From assembly GCA_024403775.1 (NCBI GenBank), contig JAKSRE010000012.1, positions 1 to 64,000 of the forward strand: DNA of 64,000 nt, written 5' to 3'. This DNA is from Clostridia bacterium. GTDB lineage: Bacteria; Bacillota; Clostridia; Saccharofermentanales; Saccharofermentanaceae. Positions 19,481-38,531 of this stretch are shown piece after piece. Position numbers and translations under genes: made by a program. The notes beneath the pieces are model-generated. The model saw nothing but the letters and a program-made list of their open reading frames with translations, searched no databases and was not told where the DNA came from. Within the stretch, counting starts at the first letter, position 1. Each line of letters starts with the position of its first letter.

Positions 19481-19530
19481 TTAGGTTTGAAGAGTAGAAG
19501 AGCACCGATCCTACTCCGACAATAAATTTG

Positions 19531-19573
19531 CACACATACAATCGTCCCCTACGAGAGTATGTGTGTTTTTTAT
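19531..19573 (+). terminator. Terminator of the padR operon
   Basis: CACACATAC (19531-19539) pairs perfectly with GTATGTGTG (19557-19565), followed by TTTTTTATT. Confidence 0.9.
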
Positions 19574-19601
19574 TGACATTCATTCTCTTTATGAGTATAC
19601 T
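19573..19601 (+). promoter_or_regulatory. Promoter of the leader-peptide/GNAT transcript
   Basis: TTGACA (19573-19578), exactly 17 bases, then TATACT (19596-19601). It starts within the T-run of the preceding terminator. A second possible -10 (GATAAT, 19605-19610) follows. Confidence 0.8.
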
Positions 19602-19631
19602 TGCGATAATATTTTCGAAAGGTGATTACAA

Positions 19632-19736
19632 ATGACCAAACTTGTGATTAGAGTAACTTATACAGTTTCAAATATCATGCGTTCTATTATGAACATGCGT
19701 GGGATTTGTTCACGTATAAATTTTAATTACCAGTAA
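19632..19736 (+). CDS. 34-aa leader peptide
   Basis: ATG at 19632 behind AAAGGTGATT, a good ribosome site; 34 codons, TAA at 19734-19736. The peptide starts MTKLVIRVTY and has the Met/Arg/Ile-rich middle MRSIMNMRGICSRINF. No amino acid is present in a run of regulatory codons, so stalling by a drug or a nascent chain is likelier than classical amino-acid attenuation. The stop codon is covered by the antiterminator segment described separately. The existence of the peptide is inferred from its position between a promoter and a terminator. Confidence 0.65.
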   Translation: MTKLVIRVTYTVSNIMRSIMNMRGICSRINFNYQ

Positions 19737-19796
19737 AGATAAATCACAGAATGTTTTTATACTGACCACTTATCTTTTAAGGTAAGTGGTCTTTTT
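19735..19796 (+). promoter_or_regulatory. Attenuator: antiterminator segment and terminator before the GNAT gene
   Basis: Terminator: GACCACTTA (19764-19772) with TAAGTGGTC (19783-19791), then TTTTT. Antiterminator: AAAGATAA (19735-19742), overlapping the leader stop codon, is perfectly complementary to TTATCTTT (19770-19777) in the left arm and loop of the terminator. A ribosome finishing the leader would mask the antiterminator and allow termination; one stalled upstream would free it and permit read-through into the GNAT gene 21 bases later. Confidence 0.68.
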
Positions 19797-19816
19797 GATT
19801 AGGAGAGGATTTGATT

Positions 19817-20371
19817 ATGAAATTTGAAAGTAAAACAGTAGTACTTAAGGACAATCGTGAGTGCATATTAGCACCGACAACATCCCAATATGCTCAGGAG
19901 ATGATAGATTTTTTAAAGCAGGTATCCTCTGAAAGTGAATTTTTGCTCCGTTATCCAGATGAAGTTAATTTTACATTGGAGTTTGAGCAGCAGATATTAG
20001 ACAGAATCTATGAAGATGAGCATTCTGTAATGATGCTTGCAATTGTAGATGGCAAAGCAGTAGGTAACTGTAGTATTAATGGCCTTGGATTTAAGCGTAA
20101 AATACGTCACCGCTGTACGCTTGCCATAGCTATAAAAGAGGAGTTCTGTGGACTTGGAATAGGAACTCACATGATCGAATATCTTATAGAACTAGCTAAG
20201 AAAATCGGCTTTGAGATAATGGAATTAGAGTATGTCGATGGAAATAATAAAGCAAAAGCTCTTTATACCAAGATGGGCTTTGTTGAAACAGGTAAGCGAA
20301 TAAAATCCATGAAATATGATGATGGAACATATAAAGATGAGATTTTGATGAGTAAGATTTTAAATGAATAG
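19817..20371 (+). CDS. GNAT family N-acetyltransferase, attenuator-controlled
   Basis: A 184-aa acetyl-CoA-dependent acetyltransferase. IKEEFCGLGIGTHMIEYLIELAKKIGF is the acetyl-CoA loop and helix; ALYTKMGFVETGKRIKSMKYDDGTYKDEILMSKIL is the RimJ/L-like C-terminal block. The substrate may be a protein, amine or drug and cannot be read from sequence. ATG at 19817 follows AGGAGAGGA; TTG at 19811 is possible. It is the first full gene after the leader/terminator, so its expression is probably conditional. The phosphodiesterase gene starts 12 bases after it. Confidence 0.88.
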   Translation: MKFESKTVVLKDNRECILAPTTSQYAQEMIDFLKQVSSESEFLLRYPDEVNFTLEFEQQILDRIYEDEHSVMMLAIVDGKAVGNCSINGLGFKRKIRHRCTLAIAIKEEFCGLGIGTHMIEYLIELAKKIGFEIMELEYVDGNNKAKALYTKMGFVETGKRIKSMKYDDGTYKDEILMSKILNE

Positions 20372-20383
20372 AGGTAAAACAAT

Positions 20384-21490
20384 ATGCTTAAATGGGAATT
20401 ATTAGATTATAAAAACTGTATCGCCAATCTTCCTAATTCTATACTTAAAAACTTTGGGGTAGAGACAAATGGAGATACGCTTGAGATTTTTGATAAATAT
20501 CTGGAAAAAGGATATAAGAATGTCGTAGTTTTGCTATTAGATGGCATGGGTACACATATTCTGGAAAATAACCTTCCTGAAGACAGCTTTCTGCGAAAGC
20601 ACTTTGTAAAAACCTATAACTCCGTATTTCCACCTACTACGGTAGCAGCCACAACTTCGATAGACTGTGGATTAACTCCAATTGAGCATTCCTGGTTTGG
20701 TTGGGACTGCTATTATCCTCAGATTGATAAGAATGTAACGGTTTTCTTAAATACAGAGCAGGGAACCTCAAATAGTGTCTCAGATGAGTCAGTAGCAAGA
20801 AAATATTGTGGATATGAATCAATTTACCATAAGCTAATTAGTGCAGGAAAAAATGCATACTATGCTACACCATTTATCCCACCACATCCAAATAGCTTTG
20901 AAGCTATCTGTGATCTGATAAAAGACCTATGTAAACAGGACGACAAGAAATACATCTATGCTTACTGGGATCAGCCTGATTCAATAATGCATCAGTTTGG
21001 CTGCAAATCTGATGAGGCAAAGGATATGCTTAAGGAGCTTGATAATAAAGTAAGAAGCCTTTGTTCTGAACTTAAGGATACGCTTCTTGTTGTTACAGCA
21101 GATCACGGACATATCGATGGACGAAATAAGTGTATTCTTGATTATCCCCAAATTCTTGAATGTCTTATTAGACTTCCATCTATAGAGCCTAGAGCGCTTA
21201 ATCTTTTTGTGAAGGAAGGAAAGGAAGAGGTTTTTGAAGAGGAGTTTACTAAGGCCTTTGGAGAGGACTTTATTCTTCTTACAAAAAGGGAAGTCTTCGA
21301 AAGTAATCTTTTTGGCGCTGGAAATGTGCACGAGAATGCATTAGGAATGATAGGTGACTATGTTGCCATAGCAAAAACTGACCTTACTATATTTAATACT
21401 TATGAGGAAACTTCTGGTTTTAAAGGTGTTCACGCTGGCTACACAAAGGATGAGATAGAGATACCTTTTATAGTTTACGAAGCAGAATAA
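20384..21490 (+). CDS. Alkaline-phosphatase superfamily phosphodiesterase/nucleotide pyrophosphatase
   Basis: A 368-aa cytoplasmic (no signal peptide) metal-dependent hydrolase. LLLDGMG gives the first metal Asp; PPTTVAATTS carries the Thr nucleophile; YWDQPDSIMHQFG, VTADHGH and HAGYTKDE provide the remaining Asp/His ligands, the pattern of type I phosphodiesterase/nucleotide pyrophosphatase. The substrate is unknown. It is co-transcribed with the attenuator-controlled GNAT (12-base gap), so it probably shares that regulation. Confidence 0.87.
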   Translation: MLKWELLDYKNCIANLPNSILKNFGVETNGDTLEIFDKYLEKGYKNVVVLLLDGMGTHILENNLPEDSFLRKHFVKTYNSVFPPTTVAATTSIDCGLTPIEHSWFGWDCYYPQIDKNVTVFLNTEQGTSNSVSDESVARKYCGYESIYHKLISAGKNAYYATPFIPPHPNSFEAICDLIKDLCKQDDKKYIYAYWDQPDSIMHQFGCKSDEAKDMLKELDNKVRSLCSELKDTLLVVTADHGHIDGRNKCILDYPQILECLIRLPSIEPRALNLFVKEGKEEVFEEEFTKAFGEDFILLTKREVFESNLFGAGNVHENALGMIGDYVAIAKTDLTIFNTYEETSGFKGVHAGYTKDEIEIPFIVYEAE

Positions 21491-21585: not shown

Positions 21586-22305
21586 ATGTCAAAAATAGTA
21601 ATGGTAACAGGAACAGGCAGAAGTTATGCTTTGGGATTTAATCTGGCTTTGAGATATCTTGAGAACGGAGATAAAGTAATTGCTACTGTTCGTAAAGATT
21701 CCGAAGACTTAAACAAACTAAAGGAACAATATGGCGACAAGCTTATTATTCTGACTATGGATATTAGTTCTTCTGATTCAGTTAACAAGGCATATGATTC
21801 ATTGAAAGATAAGGTTTACCACATTGATATGCTTATAAATAATGCGGTAACAGTATCTCCAGATTGCGATAAGGGTTTCTTTGATGCAAATCTTGATTAT
21901 ATTGCCAGAACAGTAGACGTAACTGCAGTTGGTCCAATGAGAGTTATTAAGGCTTTTTATCCACTTCTTAAGGCTTGTAGCGGAAGAGCTACTATTTATA
22001 ACATCTCATCTGAAGCAGGAAGCATTAGTAAGTGTTACAGAACTAATCTGATTGATTATGGAATGGCCAAAGCTGCACTTAATATGGCAACAATGAACCT
22101 TGTTAATACATTTAAGGATGAGGATGATATGAATATTTTCTGTATCCACCCAGGCTGGATTAGAACAGATGGCCGTCCAGATAATCCAGCACCATTATCA
22201 TCTTATGATGCTGCTTTAATTCTTCTCAATTTGTTTGAGGAGCGTAAGGATGATATGGCTGGACCAAGATTTATTACTAATCTTGGTGAGGAATATCCTT
22301 TCTAA
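21586..22305 (+). CDS. Short-chain dehydrogenase/reductase (SDR)
   Basis: A 239-aa NAD(P)-dependent oxidoreductase. VTGTGRSYALG is the cofactor loop (TGxxxxxG form with an inserted residue pattern), NNAV the structural NNAG-like motif, ISSEAGS the catalytic Ser region, YGMAK (YxxxK) the catalytic Tyr/Lys, and HPGWIRTD the usual PGxxxT segment. The substrate is unknown. GGGGGCGG precedes the ATG. The 95-base gap from the phosphodiesterase gene has no clear terminator. Confidence 0.9.
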   Translation: MSKIVMVTGTGRSYALGFNLALRYLENGDKVIATVRKDSEDLNKLKEQYGDKLIILTMDISSSDSVNKAYDSLKDKVYHIDMLINNAVTVSPDCDKGFFDANLDYIARTVDVTAVGPMRVIKAFYPLLKACSGRATIYNISSEAGSISKCYRTNLIDYGMAKAALNMATMNLVNTFKDEDDMNIFCIHPGWIRTDGRPDNPAPLSSYDAALILLNLFEERKDDMAGPRFITNLGEEYPF

Positions 22306-38455: not shown

Positions 38456-38531
38456 TGGTCGAGGTGACAGGGTTCGAACCTGCGACCCCATGCTCCCAAA
38501 GCACGTACGCTACCAACTGCGCTACACCTCG
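38456..38531 (-). tRNA. tRNA-Pro (anticodon TGG), CCA encoded
   Basis: 76 nt on the minus strand. Acceptor CGAGGTG pairs with CACCTCG, discriminator A, and CCA is encoded. The D-arm has GTAGCGCAGTTGGTAGC; the anticodon loop TTTGGGA reads TGG; the T-arm is GCAGGTTCGAACCCTGT, with a variable loop GGGTC as in bacterial tRNA-Pro. A terminator follows directly. Confidence 0.96.

Follow-up and report, generated by a model that had tools for sequence, protein, structure and literature searches.

As a rule, a gene controlled by an antibiotic-induced attenuator has a role in dealing with the inducer. In Bacillus subtilis, induction of bmrCD by ribosome-targeting antibiotics requires translation of the bmrB leader (PMC4191407), and in rli80-hflXr of Listeria (PMC6310831) as well as in mef(E)/mel (PMC4335068) it is the antibiotic-stalled ribosome that permits read-through. 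The toiL uORF of topAI-yjhQP senses several classes of ribosome-targeting antibiotics (PMC12121999).

Here, a leader region was analyzed in a stretch of 64,000 nucleotides from a Clostridia bacterium (contig JAKSRE010000012.1, positions 1 to 64,000, referred to as the window). It precedes genes for a GNAT acetyltransferase and an NPP/alkaline-phosphatase-superfamily phosphodiesterase (PDE), and is likely an attenuator of transcription under ribosome control, comparable to bmrB, mef(E) and rli80 and acting on a putative detoxification operon. With bmrB-bmrCD it shares an intrinsic terminator and, as predictions in the window, a translated leader and alternative stem-loops (PMC4191407). However, the terminator of that system lies inside the bmrB coding region, its target is an ABC transporter, and the likeness considered here is one of layout. 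As in rli80-hflXr and mef(E)/mel, a leader ORF, a terminator and an antiterminator precede a resistance gene; in the window the antiterminator is a candidate and the resistance function putative. The leaders of those two systems, in contrast, are 8-14 aa long and contain R-L-R, whereas inspection of the window peptide revealed no macrolide-type R/K-X-R/K (RLR) motif. The toiL uORF differs in that it works by ribosome-site occlusion and Rho, without an intrinsic terminator (PMC12121999). In tet(M), tet(S) and tet(O) a resistance gene also follows a short leader and terminator-like hairpins, but the examples compared have MRQGILK-type leaders and another layout, and no sequence relation was seen. 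An origin from a tet-type attenuator was rejected, and the MRQGILK-type leader was not matched by the window peptide on inspection. No papers on these peptides or on such a GNAT-PDE operon were found in the open-access literature.

Organization of the leader region

In the window, a leader ORF with a ribosome-binding site is present between a promoter and an intrinsic terminator, upstream of putative target genes, and all features of the unit and its neighbouring genes described here lie on the forward strand. The genes upstream (PadR / HAAS / DUF4097) are ended by an intrinsic terminator of their own outside the unit (19530-19571; hairpin 19530-19566, about -16 kcal/mol, followed by a T-tract). 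Since this separate terminator ends the upstream gene, the stem-loop at 19764-19791 is not that gene's terminator; it belongs to a new transcription unit, as the second terminator of the region. The unit starts with a sigma-70-type promoter, TTGACA-17-TATACT (19573-19601), with the -35 element at 19573-19578, a 17-nt spacer and the -10 element at 19596-19601. It matches the consensus at 11 of 12 positions and has the best score in 4 kb, although the match is weak when taken alone, because shuffled sequences gave about as many promoter-like sites as the scan.

The ribosome-binding site AAAGGTG (19618-19624) is followed by a 34-codon leader ORF, MTKLVIRVTYTVSNIMRSIMNMRGICSRINFNYQ, which extends from the ATG at 19632 to the TAA at 19734-19736. 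Its start codon is located 59 nt from the -35 element, a distance of 53-67 nt across all units measured. Overlapping the leader stop codon is the candidate antiterminator AAAGATAA (19735-19742), which forms a perfect 8-bp match to TTATCTTT (19770-19777) in the left arm and loop of the terminator; this exact complementarity, described in the earlier note, was confirmed. The regulatory terminator itself, GACCACTTATCT-TTTA-AGGTAAGTGGTC-TTTTT (19764-19796, stem-loop 19764-19791), has 12 bp, a 4-nt loop and a T5 tract, with about -16 kcal/mol. A possible segment 1, TGTGATT (codons 4-6, 19643-19649), is complementary to AATCACA at 19742-19748; a general test for a conserved pairing of segments 1 and 2 was not significant (combined p 0.16). 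A ribosome-binding site for the GNAT gene is found at 19801-19809, and promoter, leader, terminator and the GNAT/PDE genes thus follow each other in the order, and each element at the coordinates, first reported for them. Rfam at gathering thresholds gave only a single tRNA in the window, and a T-box or riboswitch was rejected.

Genes downstream of the leader

The GNAT acetyltransferase (184 aa, 19817-20371) was assigned to Acetyltransf_1 by profile search (E 1e-13) and to no specific subfamily, all NCBIfam matches being far below cut-off. The PDE (368 aa, 20384-21490) has the metal-binding and nucleophile residues and the fold required of the NPP type (PF01663), with D53, T86, D199, H203, D240, H241 and H350 as invariant residues. 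Its predicted model (pLDDT 97) has ENPP5 and ENPP6 as closest structures (ENPP5: E 1.4e-17, TM 0.65), and no signal peptide was apparent by eye. An SDR oxidoreductase (21586-22305) follows 95 nt downstream of the PDE; its operon membership is uncertain, and no such gene was seen next to the PDE in those relatives that were examined.

The pairing of the two enzymes is not confined to the window. A GNAT of the window type and the PDE are also adjacent in G075, G001, G016 and L033, in both gene orders, and the PDE is followed by other GNATs in G020 and G043. GNAT profile matches occurred at 6.8 per 100 kb near PDEs vs 0.3 in control DNA, an enrichment that is biased upward because the profiles were seeded with four GNATs, every one from these PDE loci, and the seeds count themselves. 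On mobile DNA, PDE homologues were limited to one distant plasmid match; phages gave no match, and viral contigs no confirmed one. Two PDEs from another family of the class (L120 and L121) are 56-57% identical to the window PDE and at least as close to it as those of genus mates, which suggests transfer. The PDE homologues of L066, L078, L080, L082 and L084 lie in open frames that span 554-570 codons and include an extension at the C-terminus.

It is the gene content that speaks for the earlier idea of a resistance or detoxification unit, and on this basis the GNAT-PDE pair is regarded as a putative detoxification operon. Alternatively, an arrest peptide could sense a cellular metabolite such as a polyamine rather than a drug, and the GNAT would acetylate that metabolite. 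Metabolite-sensing uORFs are discussed in PMC12121999, and the GNATs show weak NCBIfam similarity to spermidine/spermine acetyltransferases. These matches are, however, all far below cut-off, and the varied enzymes that recur behind such leaders (several GNAT types, a methyltransferase, the NPP-type phosphodiesterase and a GDSL hydrolase) fit varied foreign substrates at least equally. We therefore consider metabolite sensing quite unlikely.

Sibling units in the same genome

The layout as it recurs elsewhere consists of a TTGACA-type promoter, a start codon 53-67 nt downstream, a leader of 25-37 codons and a terminator 24-53 nt after the stop codon. In the window's own genome (68% covered, about 1.92 Mb) it was found at two further GNAT operons and one GDSL hydrolase gene, which overturned a reading of the layout as PDE-specific. 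One contig, C22 (L237, 706-3464), carries two leader-terminator units in tandem: a 34-aa leader before a GNAT gene and a gene for a GNAT-domain protein, and a 26-aa leader before the GDSL hydrolase gene. The N-terminal half of the GNAT-domain protein is unassigned and P-loop-like in appearance. On C38 (L239, 17688-18906), a 30-aa leader precedes two GNAT genes; it has an RLK motif, unlike the window peptide.

In 821 kb of DNA from the own genome and from relatives, a detector for TTGACA/TANNNT promoters returned just two units, both before operons of the PDE/GNAT type. When a further 774 kb and 685 kb of the own genome were scanned, three additional plausible units emerged, together with a tRNA artefact and an apparent SCIFF precursor, the 685-kb portion adding no convincing unit. 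The apparent precursor is a 48-aa Cys-rich ORF on the minus strand of L270 (near 3767) that has a promoter and a terminator and is followed by a 459-aa ORF; we take this pair to resemble a SCIFF peptide precursor and its maturase. Scanner matches in L206 and L211, on or beside tRNA genes, were discarded, as was a minus-strand match in the window that adjoins the tRNA at 38459-38531.

The own genome has about 29 GNATs. A full unit precedes 3 of the 24 GNAT genes for which upstream sequence was covered, and all three are first in their operon. Among 11 raw strict scanner matches in the own genome, 3 precede a GNAT gene (binomial p about 2e-4, by our own arithmetic, which assumes about 2,600 genes and ignores the non-random choice of C38 and C22). 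These two contigs are not a random sample, because they were chosen after earlier search matches there (in C38, a GNAT match). The layout is rare outside genes of the GNAT/PDE type.

Occurrence of the layout in the genus

In the genus, the same layout was found before seven PDE operons, the window included. Leader-bearing PDE genes of relatives are those of G015, G020, G043, G088 and G105, and in G082 the layout precedes a methyltransferase-PDE pair (the methyltransferase being named by eye). All six units that were compared have TTGACA, a spacer of 17 and TANNNT. In G008, a stem-pattern match places a terminator of the related type in front of a GNAT-GNAT-PDE operon. A leader was absent before the PDE gene in about 34 of the 41 genomes with a PDE, and the search turned up none in front of PDE genes from the sister genus or the wider class. 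On the PDE tree, the members with a leader are scattered, which argues for frequent gain, loss or transfer.

The earlier note had called for a comparative search upstream of related GNAT genes. The leader was absent before the examined homologues of the window GNAT and present before PDE orthologues instead; the architecture recurs at related genes, both in the own genome and in the genus. The layout was also detected before five genus orthologues of the C38-type GNAT. One is the near-identical counterpart of the C38 unit in G082 (L291): the GNAT genes are 97% identical, the leaders show substitutions and a single in-frame insertion of 3 nt and share an identical antiterminator core, the spacer after the stop codon carries indels of 13-14 nt, and a change in the terminator preserves a G-U pair. 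Near-identical leaders of 28 codons (MRTN[IML]MPMMYMYT...) are present in G103, G100 and G006, with indels confined to the spacer, and in G042 the same GNAT is preceded by a leader of 27 codons, MFNYMTTMHMHELTYDMKSYGIVVALK. In both near-identical sets, therefore, the spacer carries indels and the frame of the ORF is kept. Stems of the same type as the window terminator, with the pattern CCAYTTATC...GRTAAGTGG, were present in 16 of the 85 genus genomes, vs 0 for the reversed control pattern, and ten orthologues of the C38 GNAT have the related terminator stem 25-34 nt upstream. The stem pattern also matches at G000:C56:78558, G082:C32:14769, G108:C45:8969, G084:C41:4908 and G040:C123:13473.

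Similarity among the PDE leader peptides was not significant overall (pairwise sum p 0.40), and a free block search for a shared motif among leaders gave p 0.2-0.5. A start-anchored block in three PDE leaders reached p 0.00025, having been chosen after it was seen. Searches for the leader DNA in plasmids or phages gave matches at chance level only. An attenuator responding to amino-acid starvation via Thr, Arg or Val codons could explain why T, V and R are abundant in the PDE leaders and why that of G082 has six consecutive Thr codons. Yet the window leader has no codon run, in agreement with the first description of its peptide as free of single-amino-acid runs, the C22 and C38 leaders differ in composition, and the regulated genes are not biosynthetic, which makes starvation control highly improbable. 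For the same window peptide, with GNAT and PDE genes downstream, the trp/his-type class of attenuators was rejected.

Pairing of the antiterminators

Judged by the established size of its footprint, a terminating ribosome does not reach a stem that begins 24-53 nt after the stop codon, and since the stems of these units start at this distance, control would need an antiterminator. In the window, AAAGATAA pairs over 8 bp, mostly A-U, with -6 kcal/mol vs about -16 kcal/mol for the terminator. As longest perfect match the 8-nt complementarity has p about 0.01 (0.011), and the pairing energy has p 0.08-0.10 near the stop and 0.32 over a wider interval. The window antiterminator is thus weak by energy, and the 8-nt complementarity alone is modest. 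For the two C22 units (C22a and C22b) and for C38, strong pairing with the left arm of the terminator involves roughly the final 28 nt of the leader ORF (-14.4, -17.8 and -19.1 kcal/mol; each p 0.001-0.002), at positions -28 to -7 of the leader stop, and the combined p for the own genome is 6e-7. This segment would be shielded by a ribosome that completes the leader. Taken as a set, the PDE leaders of relatives yielded no significant antiterminator (combined p 0.42); that of G105 has a 12-bp pairing with p 0.09-0.15. In the leaders of G103, G100, G006 and G042 the antiterminator was not significant. All these tests followed the discovery of the units, and the statistics were partly chosen after inspection.

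A constitutive promoter, a leaky terminator and an ORF present by chance, with no control by ribosomes, would agree with the weak window antiterminator and with PDE leader peptides that lack overall conservation. They would account poorly for a layout that is rare outside GNAT/PDE-type genes, a near-constant distance from promoter to start codon, the sibling antiterminators and a leader evolution that preserves the frame, and this explanation is very unlikely in our view.

Proposed mechanism

In the proposed attenuator, RNA polymerase would initiate at 19573-19601 and transcribe the leader, which is presumed to be translated. A ribosome reaching the stop of the 34 codons would cover the antiterminator, so that the terminator at 19764-19791 forms and keeps the GNAT-PDE operon silent. 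If the ribosome stalled or slowed earlier, the free antiterminator could pair with the emerging left arm of the terminator and permit read-through. Stalling would be the signal, its likeliest cause being a ribosome-targeting compound or another molecule sensed through the nascent chain, and the acetyltransferase and phosphodiesterase may modify the stalling compound or a related one.

Ribosome-controlled switching, as advanced in the earlier note, gains from the recurrence of the layout, the three strong sibling antiterminators and the frame-preserving leader evolution; on the other side, AAAGATAA is weak and has no significant equivalent in the PDE leaders of relatives. Because the layout recurs before similar enzymes in the genome and the genus, translating ribosomes probably switch the GNAT-PDE genes on, and this switching possibly responds to drugs.

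A more far-reaching and rather doubtful picture is that of a genus network of drug-sensing leaders, with several unrelated peptide types that would each induce their own modifying enzymes. One of these enzymes would be a cytoplasmic NPP-type phosphodiesterase, which might inactivate a phosphodiester-containing or nucleotide-like translation inhibitor. In a poorly studied genus, the recurrence of such probable switches ahead of acetyltransferase, phosphodiesterase, methyltransferase and hydrolase genes offers a direct and testable route to new inducers and modifying enzymes.
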